A DNA stretch of 64,000 nucleotides from Oceanobacillus sp. FSL K6-2867 (GTDB lineage: Bacteria > Bacillota > Bacilli > Bacillales > Amphibacillaceae): NCBI RefSeq assembly GCF_037963145.1, contig NZ_CP150144.1, forward strand, positions 620,001 through 684,000. Reading direction: 5' to 3'. Each line of letters opens with the position of its first letter. Positions within the stretch are counted from its first letter, which is position 1. Below are positions 12,819-18,977 of this stretch, piece by piece. Made by a program: the position numbers and the translations under genes. The notes under the pieces are model-generated. The model saw only the letters and a list, made by a program, of their open reading frames with translations, did not search any database and was not told the DNA's origin.

Positions 12819-12902
12819 TGTGTAATAATCTGATTTACTTGATTAACCAATATATTTCTGTCATAGCTTTTTCTCAAGAAAAAAGCTGCTCTTTGTCCAA
12901 TC

Positions 12903-13145
12903 ATGACAATTCAAAGGGGAGCTGAATTGGTTCAAGAAGAAGATTTGACATATAAAATTGTTAAAAGCGACACAGGTCATTCGGGAATATCAATTATTGG
13001 TGTGACTGATGCTGATATCGTCCTCAAATTCGTTGTTGAGGATGATATCATTTTTCAACGTTTCATGATTTTTAAAAACGGTTTAATCATATGTAAAGAA
13101 AAATCTAATGGACAACGGTTATTTCGCTCTAATAGGCCTCTTTAG
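12903..13145 (+). CDS. Hypothetical protein, possibly a gene remnant (80 aa)
   Basis: The frame stays open upstream of the ATG as far as 12864, without another start. AAGGGG lies inside the frame after this ATG, not before it. The protein begins MTIQRGAELVQEEDLTYK and has a beta-rich middle (SGISIIGVTDADIVLKFVVE). It may be the leftover of a larger protein. I recognise no family and its reality is doubtful. Confidence 0.3.
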   Translation: MTIQRGAELVQEEDLTYKIVKSDTGHSGISIIGVTDADIVLKFVVEDDIIFQRFMIFKNGLIICKEKSNGQRLFRSNRPL

Positions 13146-13354: not shown

Positions 13355-13390
13355 TTTCATCAAACTTTCACATTGAGCAGCTACGATTAA
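13355..13390 (+). promoter_or_regulatory. Orphan copy of the sortase-cluster promoter element
   Basis: It starts TTTCATCAAAC then TTTCACATTGA, a direct repeat of TTTCAY with an 11-base step, and continues GCAGCTACGAT. It matches the element at 14407-14440 at nearly every position. OmpR/PhoB-type regulators typically bind direct repeats with this 11-base step, and one is encoded at 17186. No plus-strand gene follows this copy for almost 400 bases. Confidence 0.6.
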
Positions 13391-13665
13391 GATGGAGAGA
13401 TTTTTGATAGGTATGAATAAATATATGCGAGAGTTTCTTCGGTCCAAATTAATCTGTCTTGCAGGCTAAGTGCGTATTTTCGTGCAAGTATACCTGTAAT
13501 AATAGTGAGAATCAAACCGAGTAAGAGAGCATGAGAAAAGGTAAAATTACCTTGCGCGATTACGGTGATCATGGATGTAATGCCAGCAAGGAGATAATCA
13601 GAGTCAGGGGCAGCCGGAAAAAACGCTGTTGCGGTTTGATTATCAGCAGATTGAGTTTGTTTTAT
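13387..13665 (-). CDS. DUF6526-like membrane protein, start codon apparently ATA
   Basis: Read from 13665 the frame is open for 92 codons. It contains QTATAFFPAAPDSDYLLAGI, a membrane span around HALLLGLILTIITGILA, then RKYALSLQDRLIWTEETLAY. The ARKYALSLQDRLI motif is what I associate with DUF6526. A strong AAAGGAGG stands seven bases before an ATA codon at 13665, where ATG would be expected. The first ATG in frame is only at 13572. Either ATA is used or the gene has lost its start; it is also shorter than relatives (about 140 aa), so it may be decaying. Confidence 0.45.
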   Translation of the reverse strand: MKQTQSADNQTATAFFPAAPDSDYLLAGITSMITVIAQGNFTFSHALLLGLILTIITGILARKYALSLQDRLIWTEETLAYIYSYLSKISPS

Positions 13666-13785
13666 AAAGCTGCCTCCTTTACATACCAGCGTGGGTATTA
13701 TAGAGTTGTTATATGTAAATGCCTATGTAATGATTTGATTGAAATATAAAACAGATGATTAATTATGAGTTTGGAGTTGACCAGA

Positions 13786-14367
13786 GTGCTTAAAGTTTTC
13801 TCTTGGCTGTTAATTATTGCAGGCTTATCTATATTATCGATTGGCGGTTACCAGCTTTTGAGCTCGTCTGAAAAGGAAGAAGAGAGACTCTCGGAAGCAT
13901 ATGCAATTCTTGCCAATGGGGAACATACGTCCAAAGGCATAACGATAGAAGGGGTTACGGATATCGCGTATGAGACAGGAGAAACCATCGGATTACTGCA
14001 TATTCCTAAATTGGATCGTCAAATAGCTATTATAGAGGGCACGGATGAAGAAGAGCTTGCAGAGGGGGTAGGTCATTACCATGACACAGGTCTTCCCGGA
14101 CAGAATCGGCAAATCCTTTTATCGGGGCACAGGGATACTGTATTCAGGGATTTTGATCAATTAAAAGATGGAGATGAGTTCCATGTAAAAATGGAATATG
14201 GTACGTATATTTATCGAATAAGAGACCAGGAAGTTGTTGCAGCAGATAACACAACAGTGATTGATCCATCAAGAAAAGATGAATATTTAACAGTTTCCAC
14301 CTGTTATCCTTTTTACATGATTGGAAGCGCACCTGACCGTTATGTGTTATATGCTTATCCTGAGTGA
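13786..14367 (+). CDS. srtD: Class D sortase
   Basis: This is a membrane-anchored cysteine transpeptidase that would attach surface proteins to the wall. An N-terminal span (FSWLLIIAGLSILSIGGYQL) is followed by a linker and the sortase beta-barrel. The catalytic residues are seen in LSGHRDTVF (His), TVSTCYPF (Cys, the TxTC motif) and APDRYVLYA (Arg). GLLHIPKLDRQIAIIEGTDE is the usual strand region before the active site. The chosen start is GTG at 13786, with GGAG nine bases upstream; an ATG at 13765 has no ribosome binding site. No sortase substrate gene is visible nearby. It leads a cluster with CcdA, two thioredoxins and a two-component system. Confidence 0.88.
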   Translation: MLKVFSWLLIIAGLSILSIGGYQLLSSSEKEEERLSEAYAILANGEHTSKGITIEGVTDIAYETGETIGLLHIPKLDRQIAIIEGTDEEELAEGVGHYHDTGLPGQNRQILLSGHRDTVFRDFDQLKDGDEFHVKMEYGTYIYRIRDQEVVAADNTTVIDPSRKDEYLTVSTCYPFYMIGSAPDRYVLYAYPE

Positions 14368-14406
14368 AATGAGTCAAATTCGCGAAACAAGCATTCGCCA
14401 GTCCTT

Positions 14407-14440
14407 TTTCATTAAACTTTCATATTGAACAGATATGATA
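14407..14440 (+). promoter_or_regulatory. Direct-repeat operator/promoter before the redox genes
   Basis: TTTCATTAAAC then TTTCATATTGA gives two TTTCAT units 11 bases apart, followed by ACAGATATGATAAT, in which TATGAT can serve as -10. It lies 32-65 bases before the ATG at 14472 and is almost identical to 13355-13390. It is a candidate binding site for the OmpR-family regulator encoded downstream. Confidence 0.6.
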
Positions 14441-14471
14441 ATAATCAGCAGAGTAAACGGAGGAAATTCGA

Positions 14472-15119
14472 ATGGCAATTGCAAGCAAAGCCGAAACGAT
14501 TGGTGTTATCATTATCAGCTTGGCTGTCGGAGTAATTTTTCATTATTTCTTCAGTCATTTGCCTAAAAATGAGAAGAAAAAATATACAGATGAATTAATT
14601 TCACAGTTGATTAATTTCATCCTTTTTATCTGGGTCGGTAAGATTTTGTTGAGTGTATCCTTATTTGTTCAGGATCCGCTGGCAGTATTAGCTTATCCAG
14701 GAGATTCAAATGCCTTTTATTTAGCAGTTTTATTTACTGCCATCATCATTATTTATAAAACACTGCGTAAAAACCTGAATCTGTTTGTATTTGCTGAAGC
14801 ACTTACATATGTATTTCTTATTTCATTATTTATCTATGAATTTTTACAATTGGTTCTAAAAGACGATATTTATTCGCTTGGATATCTCATCCTATCGGGC
14901 ATACTGCTGATTATTTTTTTCTTTATACATGACCGTATTAAACTATTTTCCCTGTTAATGATGATTTTAACTGGATGGACTGTGGGGGTGCTTATTCTAA
15001 ACTATATTTATCCTTTTGTTGCCGTATTTGGTTATCTCCTTGGTTGGGGTTTTATTATCACATTTTTCATCTTCTGCGGAGCCATTCTTATCTTATATGA
15101 AAAGAAAGGGAGATCATAA
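14472..15119 (+). CDS. Polytopic membrane protein of the sortase/CcdA cluster (215 aa)
   Basis: Six or so membrane spans can be counted: IGVIIISLAVGVIFHYFF, LINFILFIWVGKILLSV, FYLAVLFTAIIIIY, FAEALTYVFLISLFIYEFL, LGYLILSGILLIIFFF and the C-terminal pair ending at ILILYEKKGRS. There are no recognised motifs. CGGAGGAAATTCG before the ATG is a strong ribosome binding site. Its stop overlaps the ATG of ccdA, so the two are translationally coupled. That suggests a role in membrane electron transfer or complex assembly, but no family is recognised. Confidence 0.75.
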   Translation: MAIASKAETIGVIIISLAVGVIFHYFFSHLPKNEKKKYTDELISQLINFILFIWVGKILLSVSLFVQDPLAVLAYPGDSNAFYLAVLFTAIIIIYKTLRKNLNLFVFAEALTYVFLISLFIYEFLQLVLKDDIYSLGYLILSGILLIIFFFIHDRIKLFSLLMMILTGWTVGVLILNYIYPFVAVFGYLLGWGFIITFFIFCGAILILYEKKGRS

Positions 15120-15877
15120 TGGGAATTATTGAAACAGATACAATGTTGTTAGTAGGAGTGATTTTAGCAATTGGTGCAGGAGCAATGTCCTTTTTATCAC
15201 CTTGTGTGCTTCCAATTTTTCCTGCCTATATGTCTTATATTACTGGGATTAGTGTAAAAGATTTACAAGGAAGTCAGGATACGAGAATTCGCGGGAAATT
15301 ACTTAGCCACTCTTTTTTCTTTTTACTTGGGGTGTCTCTCGTGTTTATCAGTTTGGGCGCCGGCGCTTCATTTTTGGGACAATGGGTGCAAAATCTGCTA
15401 ATTGGTGATACTGGTTTGTTGATTCAACGCATTGCCGGGATCTTTATTGTCTTTATGGGATTATTTGTTGCTGGATGGATTAATTTACCCACTTTGATGA
15501 AAGAGAGAAGAATACATCAAGCCAAGAAACCAGCAGGATTTCTTGGAACATTCTTTATCGGATTAGGATTTGCTGCTGGATGGACGCCTTGTATTGGTCC
15601 TATTTTTGGATCGATTCTGCTGCTGGCAGCATCAAATCCTGGACAAGGTGTATTCTATACGATTTTTTATGTCATCGGTTTTGCATTACCTTTTGTAGTG
15701 CTGACCTTTTTCCTCGGTTCAACGAAATGGATTGTACGGCACAGCGGTATTATTATGAAAGTCGGCGGCCTGTTAATGATTGTGATGGGATTGGTTTTAT
15801 TCTTTGGTCTGATGCCTCGTATCTCCACATTTTTACTTGATTTAATACAAGATACATGGTTATCGCGATTAGGTTAA
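15119..15877 (+). CDS. ccdA: CcdA-type thiol-disulfide electron transporter
   Basis: CcdA moves reducing equivalents from cytoplasmic thioredoxin across the membrane to extracytoplasmic thioredoxin-like proteins. The paired cysteines are present: FLSPCVLPIFPAYMSYITG in span 1 and GWTPCIGPIFGSILLLA in span 4. Six spans fit the 252 aa. The ATG overlaps the preceding stop (TAATG). Two TlpA-like thioredoxins follow at once and are the probable electron acceptors. Being next to a sortase and a two-component system, it probably serves surface-protein thiols here, although cytochrome c maturation cannot be excluded. Confidence 0.9.
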   Translation: MGIIETDTMLLVGVILAIGAGAMSFLSPCVLPIFPAYMSYITGISVKDLQGSQDTRIRGKLLSHSFFFLLGVSLVFISLGAGASFLGQWVQNLLIGDTGLLIQRIAGIFIVFMGLFVAGWINLPTLMKERRIHQAKKPAGFLGTFFIGLGFAAGWTPCIGPIFGSILLLAASNPGQGVFYTIFYVIGFALPFVVLTFFLGSTKWIVRHSGIIMKVGGLLMIVMGLVLFFGLMPRISTFLLDLIQDTWLSRLG

Positions 15878-15895
15878 TTACTGGAGGGATTTATA

Positions 15896-16486
15896 ATGAA
15901 AAAAGCAATACCTATTGTCATTGTTATAGGGATGCTTGGTTGGGCATTATTTGATTTTATTGGATCATCAACCAATGAAGAGGTCGAAAATGATGCGATG
16001 TCAGGAAATAGTATCACTTCTCCACTGGAAGAAGATACAGAAGAAGTAGTGGAATCCGATGAAGTAGGGCTGGAAAGAGGGATGATTGCCCCGGATTTCG
16101 AAGTGATGACACTAAATGGTGAGCAAGTAAAATTATCGGATTATCGAGGGGAACGCGTTTTGCTGAACTTTTGGGCAACCTGGTGTCCTCCATGTCGGGC
16201 AGAAATGCCTGATATGCAAAAGCTGTACGAGGAAGAAGATGTTACGATATTAGCCTTAAATATGACAGAGACGGAGAATAATGTTGAAAGAGTTGAGGAA
16301 TTTATTGATGAGCTTGGATTAACTTTTCCAGTTTTAATGGATGAAACATCTGATGTGATGACTTCTTATAAAGTTCAAGTATACCCAACATCTTATATGA
16401 TTGATTCCAATGGAAGAATTCAATATATTACTCTTGGAGCGATGAATTATGATCAGATGCTGCAGCAAATGAGCAAAATCGATTAA
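15896..16486 (+). CDS. Membrane-anchored TlpA-like thioredoxin, first copy (196 aa)
   Basis: An N-terminal anchor (AIPIVIVIGMLGWALFDFIG) is followed by an acidic linker of about 40 residues, then a TlpA/ResA-type domain: GMIAPDFEVMTLNGEQVKLS, NFWATWCPPCRAEMPDMQ with the WCPPC active site, FIDELGLTFPVLMDE and the cis-Pro loop VYPTSYMID. It would be an extracytoplasmic thiol reductase fed by CcdA. TGGAGGG precedes the ATG. It is a paralogue of the next gene, with the same active site. Confidence 0.88.
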   Translation: MKKAIPIVIVIGMLGWALFDFIGSSTNEEVENDAMSGNSITSPLEEDTEEVVESDEVGLERGMIAPDFEVMTLNGEQVKLSDYRGERVLLNFWATWCPPCRAEMPDMQKLYEEEDVTILALNMTETENNVERVEEFIDELGLTFPVLMDETSDVMTSYKVQVYPTSYMIDSNGRIQYITLGAMNYDQMLQQMSKID

Positions 16487-16515
16487 TTCGAACAAAAATA
16501 CGGGATGTGTGCTTA

Positions 16516-17148
16516 ATGAGAAGATTTTTATTGGCAATTGTACTACTTGGTATGGTTGGCTGGACTGTGTATGAATTTGCCCTTGCATCTGATAGTTCAG
16601 ATAATGGACAAGAAATGGTATCGGATGACTCTGAGAGTGAAGAAGGGTTTGCAGCAGATGTAAAAAAAGCATTTGAAACAGCTGAAGCGGATGAAGCAGA
16701 AGAAGAAACTACAGCTGAAAAAGAGATTGGTCTCGAAATCGGAAACCTTGCTCCCGACTTTCAATTAACTACGTTGACTGGAGAAGAGACAGCATTGTCG
16801 GATTATCGCGGCAGCAAAATTATGCTTAATTTCTGGGCAACCTGGTGTCCTCCATGCCGTGCAGAAATGCCCGATATGGAGAAATTTCATCAGGATACAG
16901 ATGTCGAAATTCTGGCAGTAAACTTAACGGAAACCGAGCCTCATCCCAATCAGGTTCAGCAATTTGCAGATGAATATGGATTAACTTTTCCTATTTTATT
17001 AGATGAGAAAGTCGAGGTTGCAACAATTTATGCGATACAGCCAGTACCTACTTCATTTATGATAGACTCAGAAGGTATTATTCAGTTTAAATCTATTGGT
17101 CCCTTAACATACGACCAGATGGTACAAGTCTCAAAAGATATGGATTAA
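16516..17148 (+). CDS. Membrane-anchored TlpA-like thioredoxin, second copy (210 aa)
   Basis: It is built like its neighbour: an anchor (FLLAIVLLGMVGWTVYEFAL), a longer very acidic linker rich in Asp, Glu and Ser, then GNLAPDFQLTTLTGEE, NFWATWCPPCRAEMPDME and PVPTSFMID. The start is the ATG at 16516; an ATG three codons earlier has no room for a ribosome binding site, and GGGATG is the only weak candidate. The pair probably arose by tandem duplication. Different linkers and substrate-facing loops suggest different partners. Confidence 0.86.
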   Translation: MRRFLLAIVLLGMVGWTVYEFALASDSSDNGQEMVSDDSESEEGFAADVKKAFETAEADEAEEETTAEKEIGLEIGNLAPDFQLTTLTGEETALSDYRGSKIMLNFWATWCPPCRAEMPDMEKFHQDTDVEILAVNLTETEPHPNQVQQFADEYGLTFPILLDEKVEVATIYAIQPVPTSFMIDSEGIIQFKSIGPLTYDQMVQVSKDMD

Positions 17149-17185
17149 CCTTCTGTGTTAGTATATTAAGTATGAGGTGAGCAGG

Positions 17186-17869
17186 ATGGAACAGACAATA
17201 TTAGTTGTCGAAGATGATAAAATGATTCGAAACCTTATCAGCCTATATTTAAAAAAGGCTGGATATGCTGTTGCAGAGGCTGCTGACGGAGAAGAAGCAA
17301 AACAGGTATTTATGAAAATGCATCCTTGTATGGTAATACTTGATCTAATGCTGCCTAAACTTTCAGGAGAAGAATTTTGTATTTGGATTCGGGAACTGGA
17401 AAGAAATGAAGTTTCCATCATTATGTTATCAGCGAAAGTCCGTACAGAAGATAAAATCAATGGTTTAAAGCTTGGAGCAGATGATTATCTTGTAAAACCT
17501 TTTCACCCGGAAGAATTAATGGCCCATGTTGAAGCTGTATTACGGCGTACAGGACAGTTTTGCCAAAAGATTGCTTATGATGGTTTATGCATTAAACCTC
17601 GTAAAGGCGAAGTACTGTTGTTTGATAAAGAATTGAAGCTGACAAAGCATGAATTTAATCTTTTATATACATTTATGGAGAATCCGAATGTTGTTATTTC
17701 CAGGGAGAATTTAATGGACCAATTATATCCCTATGCAGATAAACTGGTATCCTACCGTACGATTGATGCCCATATAAAAAAGCTGCGGAAAAAAATTGAA
17801 AATAATCCGGCTGTTCCAGAGCGTATTACAACAGTACGGGGAATGGGGTATAAATTTGTTACGCAGTAA
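17186..17869 (+). CDS. OmpR/PhoB-family response regulator
   Basis: The receiver domain shows ILVVEDDKMIRNL (acidic pocket), CMVILDLMLPKLSGEEF with the phospho-acceptor Asp, IIMLSAK and DDYLVKPFHPEEL with the conserved Lys. The C-terminal winged helix is the OmpR type (LTKHEFNLLYTFMENPN, YRTIDAHIKKLRKKIE, ITTVRGMGYKF). GAGGTG lies just before the ATG. Its stop lies inside the next gene, the partner kinase. The 11-base-step repeats at 13355 and 14407 are plausible targets, so it probably controls the sortase/redox genes. Confidence 0.92.
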   Translation: MEQTILVVEDDKMIRNLISLYLKKAGYAVAEAADGEEAKQVFMKMHPCMVILDLMLPKLSGEEFCIWIRELERNEVSIIMLSAKVRTEDKINGLKLGADDYLVKPFHPEELMAHVEAVLRRTGQFCQKIAYDGLCIKPRKGEVLLFDKELKLTKHEFNLLYTFMENPNVVISRENLMDQLYPYADKLVSYRTIDAHIKKLRKKIENNPAVPERITTVRGMGYKFVTQ

Positions 17870-18977
17870 ATTGCGGAGTATATTTTTCCCAAATCAGTTT
17901 ATCTTCCTATTAACATTTATTAATATAGCCGTAACCGCAGTTTTTGTTGCCCTTAGCAGCTGGGCAATTTATAATACAGCCTGCTTATTGGCAGATGGCA
18001 TGCTTTCCATGACAGTACAAAAACAGAATCTATTTGAATCAACATTATACCAATATCTATGGGTGTTCAGTCTTTGCGCTGTATTTTTAGGCGGACTTAT
18101 TCATTATTATTTAACAAAGAAAGTCACTGAGCCATTAAAAAAATTAATTTTTTCAACAAAAAAGATGAAACAAGGTCAATATGTGCCGATTTCAGTAACT
18201 GTAAAACGAGATGGAGAAATCGGAGAGTTAATCAATCATTTCAATGAACTTGCACAGCAATTGGAAACGAATGAAAAGCAGCGAAGAAAATTGGTATCTG
18301 ATTTATCTCATGAGTTTCGAACACCACTTACGAATTTAAATGGTTATTTGCGTGCATTGCAAAGTGGTATATTGGAAGGTGACGAAAGGCTGTATCAGGC
18401 ACTTTATGAAGAGTCTTCAAAACTCACCCAGCTTGTAGAACAAATAGAAAAGCTGAAAGAATGGGATGATATGGCTGAACGGACAGTGGTTGAAAAAGAA
18501 GCGGTTAATATGAAGGAGTTTATTGGAAAATCCGTTAAAATATTCCATTGGACGCTGGAGCAGAATGACATGGATCTGGTTTTAGATGTGGAGTCAAGTA
18601 TTGTTGCCATTGATTCTACAAGCATTTCACAAGTAATGAGTAATTTATTGGATAATGCTATCCGTTATTATAAGGGTACAGGGCCAATCATAATAAAAGG
18701 AGAAAAACTGCCTAGCGAATATAAAGTCTCTGTAACAGGGCCAGGACGGATAATTTCAAAAGCTGATAGAGAAAGAATTTTTGATAGATTTTATCGCACT
18801 GAAAAATCAAGATCCCGGAAATTAGGAGGATCGGGCTTAGGGCTAGCTATTTCAAAAGAAATAGTAGAACGGCATAATGGAAAAATAGGATTACAGTCAG
18901 AGAGTGATATACATACTTTTTGGTTTGTATTGCCTCATCTCCTTCAGACAACGGCTCACGATGGTGGTCTAGATTAG
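17856..18977 (+). CDS. Sensor histidine kinase with an altered G1 box
   Basis: The frame overlaps the regulator's end by 14 bases and starts at TTG 17856, with GGGG six bases upstream; the ATG at 17796 lies deep inside the regulator gene. Two membrane spans flank a short outer loop of about 25 residues. A HAMP linker (KKVTEPLKKLIFSTKKM), HisKA with DLSHEFRTPLTNL and HATPase_c follow. The N box (SNLLDNAIRYY) and G2 box (GGSGLGLAIS) are normal. Where DxGxG is expected the protein reads SVTGPGRIIS, so the conserved Asp that contacts adenine is absent. Confidence 0.88.
   Translation: MLRSKLRSIFFPNQFIFLLTFINIAVTAVFVALSSWAIYNTACLLADGMLSMTVQKQNLFESTLYQYLWVFSLCAVFLGGLIHYYLTKKVTEPLKKLIFSTKKMKQGQYVPISVTVKRDGEIGELINHFNELAQQLETNEKQRRKLVSDLSHEFRTPLTNLNGYLRALQSGILEGDERLYQALYEESSKLTQLVEQIEKLKEWDDMAERTVVEKEAVNMKEFIGKSVKIFHWTLEQNDMDLVLDVESSIVAIDSTSISQVMSNLLDNAIRYYKGTGPIIIKGEKLPSEYKVSVTGPGRIISKADRERIFDRFYRTEKSRSRKLGGSGLGLAISKEIVERHNGKIGLQSESDIHTFWFVLPHLLQTTAHDGGLD

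Follow-up and report, generated by a model that had tools for sequence, protein, structure and literature searches.

The window analysed here (64,000 nucleotides, positions 620001-684000 of the single 4.40 Mb contig of Oceanobacillus sp. FSL K6-2867) carries an operon encoding a CcdA/TlpA thiol-reducing relay, which ends with genes for an OmpR/PhoB-type response regulator and a sensor histidine kinase and is headed by a pho-box-like element. A second copy of this element stands upstream of the neighbouring gene for a class D sortase. The explanation that best fits the whole, and which we regard as probable, is that the operon's own PhoB-type pair senses extracytoplasmic thiol or reactive-sulfur stress and induces the CcdA/TlpA relay via the element. 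The gene content, the element with its conservation and specificity, the co-occurrence of the regulator and a conserved cysteine of the kinase were all read directly from the compared sequences.

Element 1 (14407..14424; forward strand, as are all features below unless stated otherwise) reads TTTCAT TAAAC TTTCAT A, with TTTCAT at 14407 and again at 14418, a step of exactly 11 bases, and it starts 65 bp 5' of the ATG at 14472 and 3' of the sortase stop-codon. An earlier sequence-only reading of this DNA had pointed out two TTTCAY units exactly 11 bases apart before this gene, which was confirmed, although the copy at 13355 had been overlooked. The sequence TTTCATTAAACTTTCAT found at 14407 recurs at 13355 upstream of the sortase gene, where element 2 (TTTCATCAAACTTTCACA, 13355..13372) lies 410 bp 5' of the sortase ATG. 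Element 1 is followed, 9 nt 3' of the 18-mer, by the predicted −10 hexamer TATGAT (14434..14439), and element 2 by TACGAT (13382..13387) at the same spacing. TTTCAYNNNNNTTTCAY occurred twice in the window versus 0.15 expected occurrences, a count reached by none of 100 shuffles, and the long form TTTCATNAAACTTTCANATTGANCAG, with up to three mismatches allowed, was detected genome-wide only at 13355 and 14407, the control giving none. The bare 11-bp repeat was rejected as evidence because the loose pattern is common genome-wide (19 matches versus 8 for the backwards pattern), specificity being found only in the extended form with the −10. As judged from its sequence, the element resembles a Pho box in layout, with two 11-bp direct repeats of seven conserved and four loose bases, but its core is TTTCA (TTTCAT or TTTCAY in the aligned sites) and not TGTCA, and it is thus pho-box-like but no true Pho box. 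The distance from the repeats to the −10 is similar in pho promoters. As described for Escherichia coli in the part of PMC2648988 concerned with it, the Pho box likewise comprises two 11-bp direct repeats, CTGTCAT plus four loose bases, and serves a PhoB-type regulator, but it controls phosphate genes rather than thiol genes.

Conservation of the repeat in related clusters, the absence of which the sequence-only reading had named as a refutation of its proposal, was examined in 80 Bacillales loci, the best 80 of 567 fetched by CcdA, with up to two deviations from the element tolerated. The same gene set was found in Oceanobacillus, Virgibacillus, Lentibacillus, Gracilibacillus, Sporosarcina and relatives, and the proposal passed this test: the element heads the operon at 60 of the 63 loci with an adjacent regulator gene versus 11 of the 17 without (p 0.0023). 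Nine of these 17 have a regulator elsewhere in the genome, eight of them together with the element (L146 was included because it shares its assembly with L117; the regulator frame in the genome of L139 contains a stop). For the remaining eight no regulator was found in the genome, so that a regulator anywhere in the genome goes with the element in 68 of 72 cases as against 3 of 8 without it (p 2.6e-4), all these Fisher p values being too small because the species are related. Among 58 genomes, the window's own and 57 relatives, 16 have a regulator orthologue at E ≤ 1e-80, and the exact 18-mer was present in 12 of these versus 6 of the 42 others (p 2.2e-5, again among related species). The site is slightly changed in two of the four regulator-bearing genomes lacking the exact 18-mer (G030 and G032) and degenerate in a third (G049), and in the fourth (G011) the contig stops before the operon start. 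In a further genome, G017, the exact 18-mer stands at an unlinked tlpA gene, the operon's own site being off by one letter. At the relatives' loci with the six-span gene that opens the operon and tlpA but no adjacent regulator (L050, L051, L059, L061, L063, L066 and L069), the element was decayed or missing. Two of these, L066 and L069 of genome G024, are alike broken six-span/tlpA copies more than 1 Mb apart, each with a decayed element.

Alignment of the 60 sites from the regulator-adjacent clusters revealed TTTCAT-N-AAA-Y-TTTCAYA as almost fixed, with TANNNT 9 bases on. As these sites had been selected by the element and its −10 layout, the spacing was checked separately on sites selected by the 18-mer alone, where TANNNT occupies the fixed place in 66 of 68 distinct sites and was seen at most 13 times at any other offset between 20 and 39. 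At L107, two full elements (5193 and 5290) lie 97 bp apart before one six-span gene.

A whole-genome search for the element plus −10 yielded 51 sites in 39 of 50 genomes, while the backwards control gave none in all 50. All 51 strings could be traced to the operon loci (L106-L185) or to eight further loci, and all stand at genes of the system, osmC, tlpA or srtD. Considering 65 distinct sites from 88 loci, the first gene 3' encodes the six-span protein in 52 cases, ccdA in 5, osmC in 3, the regulator in 2, tlpA in 2 and srtD in 1, with no other gene found. Away from the operon, two sites stand before an isolated tlpA gene, one in G017, where a glutaredoxin gene comes next, and one in Gracilibacillus halotolerans (L216). 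Second loci comprising six-span, tlpA, regulator and kinase genes, and in L219 alone also ccdA, bear the element in two genomes each of Lentibacillus and Virgibacillus (L218-L221). It further occurs at a locus of Lentibacillus persicus that includes the regulator (L222), at a six-span/tlpA pair in L. salicampi (L223), and before osmC-srtD in Gracilibacillus timonensis (L217), at a distance of 11 kb from that genome's operon. In L222, ccdA has shrunk to 58 in-frame codons between an intact six-span gene and tlpA, and in L217 an alkaline-phosphatase-like gene with a LysM-like tail, as read from the sequence (L217:2266-3771), lies divergent to the element-osmC-srtD group.

That the regulator acts through the repeat, as the sequence-only reading had supposed, is strongly supported by this comparison, because the element tracks the regulator and the sites in whole genomes all stand at system genes, osmC, tlpA or srtD. 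The element could instead be the site of another PhoB-family regulator, e.g. the phosphate regulator, with the operon's own pair acting elsewhere. The half-sites are arranged as in a Pho box, and the operon's regulator, which has a receiver domain (PF00072, 100.6 bits) and a Trans_reg_C winged helix (PF00486, 86.4 bits) over the cut-offs, finds its best match in the PhoB model TIGR02154, albeit with 209.2 bits under the cut-off of 296.2, making it PhoB-like without being classed as PhoB. Yet no phosphate gene comes first downstream of any of the 51 sites, and the element tracks the operon's regulator and even precedes the detached regulator gene in L108 and L110, so we consider control by another PhoB-family regulator very improbable.

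Domain matches confirmed the gene content given in the sequence-only reading, namely a sortase, a six-span protein, CcdA, two thioredoxins and an OmpR/PhoB-type regulator with its kinase. The operon runs from the six-span gene (14472..15119) through a CcdA-type transmembrane thiol/electron carrier with a DsbD_TM domain (15119..15877), a membrane-anchored TlpA/ResA-like thioredoxin with a WCPPC motif (15896..16486) and a second one, also WCPPC (16516..17148, alternative start GTG 16507), to the response regulator (17186..17869, alternative start GTG 17177, the origin of the numbering used here) and the HisKA-type sensor kinase with two spans and a short outer loop (17856..18977; the longest frame, from TTG 17796, was used for numbering). 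A DsbD_TM protein with a cysteine pair (Cys29 and Cys158, invariant in 11 aligned CcdA sequences) together with WCxxC thioredoxins identifies a CcdA/TlpA reductive relay. In Bacillus, CcdA and ResA take part in the maturation of cytochrome c, and the cluster might accordingly be an auxiliary module of this ResA/CcdA kind whose control is unrelated to thiol stress, all the more as the ResA model is the best match of both thioredoxins, yet below its cut-off. However, none of the seven cluster proteins of the window is a cytochrome c or haem-ligation protein, and the genes that recur beside the system in other genomes encode OsmC, TusA, DsrE and an MBL-fold protein, plus glutaredoxin in one genome; such a maturation role thus appears improbable.

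The six-span protein has the overall fold of prolipoprotein diacylglyceryl transferase (Lgt) according to a predicted model and a structure search, and in profile comparison with Lgt it scores above CcdA controls. For this comparison, 54 frames of 205-230 residues from the 80 loci were aligned with the window protein. Only one of the 55 members matches the Lgt family PF01790 (E 7.6e-4), the cut-off being reached by none, and the window protein gave no match at E ≤ 1; searching the PDB sequences with a profile of the six-span family yielded no matches either. Profile alignments, of low probability (13 and 20%), place Tyr83, Phe120 and Val173 at Lgt positions H103, R143 and R239, and a middle stretch of Lgt (5azb) has no counterpart in the six-span protein. 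These three residues are catalytic or essential in Lgt, and the E. coli mutant H103Y fails to complement, as stated in the relevant part of PMC4728403. Judged from the model and these alignments, the six-span protein is probably no working Lgt but a membrane partner of TlpA. Assignment as a 7TMR-DISM receptor was rejected (18.1 versus 29 bits, and missing from the fold-search rows).

In the kinase, Cys63 (residue 43 if counted from TTG 17856; codon 17982..17984) is invariant in 69 of 69 distinct sequences, which were obtained from 75 matches above 220 bits by dropping identical sequences and frames of up to 320 residues and adding the window protein. Between residues 34 and 112, only Y59, A62 and C63, forming a YxxAC motif, are invariant, and hydropathy places Cys63 where the first span ends on the outer side, with a loop of some 25 residues following. 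This makes the cysteine a candidate thiol sensor, and thiol sensing a plausible function. It is preceded mostly by T and then always by A, with N, not L, before those, a context in which the thiol might conceivably be, or once have been, a lipidation target. A single invariant outer-face cysteine would also suit a pair that senses copper or another thiophilic metal, thiol repair then answering metal damage, and one plasmid copy of the system lies near arsenic genes. A precedent is DsbRS of Pseudomonas aeruginosa, of which the pertinent parts of PMC10141476 say that the kinase DsbS reportedly binds copper and that the pair induces genes for disulfide-bond formation. Against metal sensing, invariance extends to a single cysteine and to no His or Met between residues 34 and 112 of the kinase, and the recurrent neighbours are sulfane-sulfur genes, although no systematic search for metal pumps was made; overall we regard it as unlikely, though less so than the alternatives weighed above. 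On the cytoplasmic side, Cys51 of the regulator (codon 17327-17329), four residues before the presumed phosphorylation Asp, is kept in 76 of 76 regulators and Cys129 in 75 of 76 (83 matches above 250 bits, identical ones dropped), a possible cytoplasmic redox input.

Genes for MBL-fold (rhodanese type), TusA, TauE or DsrE proteins were present in the fetched flanks of 28 of the 80 loci, with at least two kinds in 20, and in none of 49 control loci (162 kb), counts that can be read as a density comparison only because the control loci were shorter and the 80 loci are related; ten of the proteins were domain-checked. These neighbours suggest that reactive sulfur is part of the signal or of the load. 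On large plasmids of Sporosarcina psychrophila and Cytobacillus oceanisediminis (L260 and L261), the operon or a ccdA-redoxin relative was observed beside sulfur-transfer genes, in one case with arsenic genes as well.

In the mechanism we propose, the two promoters would share a PhoB-type element to which the operon's own regulator binds. On the outer side of the membrane, the kinase would perceive thiol-reactive or reactive-sulfur stress, probably via its single invariant cysteine, and the phosphorylated regulator would occupy both half-sites, which stand in for a −35 box, and activate the operon from the Lgt-like gene to the kinase gene, its own genes included. Cytoplasmic thioredoxin would then supply electrons that CcdA hands on to the TlpA proteins, and these would restore extracellular thiols that had become oxidised or persulfidated to the reduced state, whereby the signal would end. 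Element 2 may place the class D sortase paralogue under the regulator too, in this genome. Binding, activation, the nature of the signal, the feedback and the control of the sortase are what we infer here. A bolder version, to which we give rather less than even chances, is a Bacillales-wide envelope thiol-stress system in which the kinase monitors redox state or persulfidation on the outer face through its only invariant sensor residues, the membrane-surface YxxAC. The TTTCA pho-box-like element would then control OsmC as well as a CcdA/TlpA relay whose central partner is an Lgt-fold protein devoid of catalytic activity, and in some lineages also a dedicated class D sortase.

Several observations weigh against the proposal of a self-controlled thiol-stress operon. 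Kinship of the species makes the Fisher tests overstate independence, and the exact 18-mer occurs in the 6 of 42 regulator-less genomes at about the backwards control rate (7 of 58 genomes). No orthologue of the regulator was detected in the genome of L144, whose element is nevertheless good, and two weaker cases of the same kind, the others of the three element-bearing loci in regulator-less genomes, are L153, where the −10 is damaged, and L183, at a contig end; conversely, L157, L164 and L173 bear the regulator but no element at the threshold used. The osmC homologue of the window's genome is without an element, the window holds none of the sulfane-sulfur genes sought, and Cys63 could be structural or metal-binding. 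Furthermore, the sign of control may differ, because the kinase of a similar locus in Fusobacterium acts negatively.

This last locus is ModRS of Fusobacterium nucleatum, in which, as far as the text of PMC9239216 and PMC12288474 covers it, kinase and regulator are encoded together with CcdA and an extracytoplasmic thioredoxin at a single locus (ccdA-trx-msrAB), the regulator activates trx and ccdA, and the locus is induced by peroxide. Unlike in the window cluster, whose seven proteins contain no Msr domain, MsrAB is part of that locus, and deletion of the kinase ModS raised trx and ccdA there. The main text of PMC9239216 leaves unsettled how ModS acts and uses the words 'binding site' nowhere. 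To our knowledge, the pneumococcal regulator of a comparable system is not of the PhoB type. In streptococci, genes for a kinase and a regulator share an operon with those for CcdA and a thioredoxin-like lipoprotein at the CTM locus of Streptococcus pneumoniae (ccdA1/etrx1 or tlpA/msrAB) and at ccdA2-sdbB of S. gordonii, but one of these includes MsrAB, and a six-span Lgt-like protein is not named for them in the portions of PMC12650345 and PMC7034828 dealing with these loci. DsbRS shares two-component control of thiol-disulfide genes and differs, as portrayed in the cited portion of PMC10141476, by its copper sensing, its Gram-negative dsb genes and its other gene set. The proposed arrangement is not without precedent, regulator pairs in CcdA/thioredoxin loci being known from streptococci and Fusobacterium. 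The kind of system is already known; what sets the Bacillales version apart is a PhoB-type element, a partner resembling Lgt, the absence of MsrAB from the window cluster and, in some genomes, sites at OsmC and SrtD genes.

No description of this Bacillales operon was found among the titles and abstract openings of the matches listed from the open-licence literature. As far as we know, the way in which Gram-positive bacteria detect oxidised or persulfidated extracellular thiols and repair them is poorly understood. The present system yields a regulator, an element specific enough to map a regulon from sequence alone, one candidate sensor cysteine, and a protein with the Lgt fold that is probably without Lgt chemistry.

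The sortase gene (13765..14367, alternative start GTG 13786) encodes a class D sortase, SrtD (NF058671, 218.4 bits, cut-off 140). Since element 1 lies 3' of its stop-codon, it is outside the transcript headed by the element at 14407, from which a weak terminator-like stem of five pairs (14382..14398) separates it. Contrary to the single regulated unit first envisaged, the sortase forms a separate transcription unit with its own element copy. Orthologues with at least 58% identity were found in 7 of the 80 genomes searched, other full-length matches reaching at most 51% and one partial match in G066 64% over 129 residues. When 30 loci with sequence were inspected, an element was located within 1.5 kb upstream in three of the seven close orthologues versus none of 23 other SrtD loci. 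The three are the window, L227, with osmC in between, and L231, the same locus as L156, which mirrors the window in the order element, 309 nt, srtD, element, operon. By these counts the link between sortase and element is real but rare. At L226, by comparison, a truncated tlpA frame is downstream of the sortase gene, and MBL-fold and TusA genes are upstream.

Alternatively, the 13355 element may be a relic of a lost osmC promoter that does not drive the sortase. The 410 bp to the sortase gene would fit this, as would the order element-osmC-srtD in G. timonensis, osmC being missing here and its homologue located elsewhere without an element, and four of the seven close orthologues have no element within 1.5 kb. 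On the other hand, 13355 retains the conserved positions and the −10, and the arrangement is repeated in a second genome (L156), so that a relic is a serious contender but, in our judgement, falls short of an even chance. If the sortase truly belongs to the regulon, surface protein anchoring would be linked to the thiol state, and on the bolder version a single stress regulon would raise it together with thiol repair at the surface.

No LPxTAT surface protein was found in the window; four are encoded elsewhere in its genome, which has two class D sortases. Scanning the window, L217, L156, L226-L231 (except L227) and L105 for a sortase substrate beside the cluster gave only an LPTTATD protein at L105. 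This is the locus of the genome's second class D sortase (G000:C1:3586964-3587521, reverse strand), about 4 kb from the frame at 3591539 (forward strand) for the 232-residue LPTTATD surface protein. The sortase leader (13388..13764) folds with a z of −2.07, 3 of 100 shuffles being equally good. It gave no match to an Rfam family, a sub-threshold microRNA match (12859-12950) lying outside it, and an osmC remnant within it was rejected (tblastn best E 0.73). Inside the leader, a DUF6526-like frame, short or decayed and without a good start-codon, runs on the reverse strand (13390-13722), and in Psychrobacillus soli (L153) a DUF6526-like frame likewise precedes the operon.

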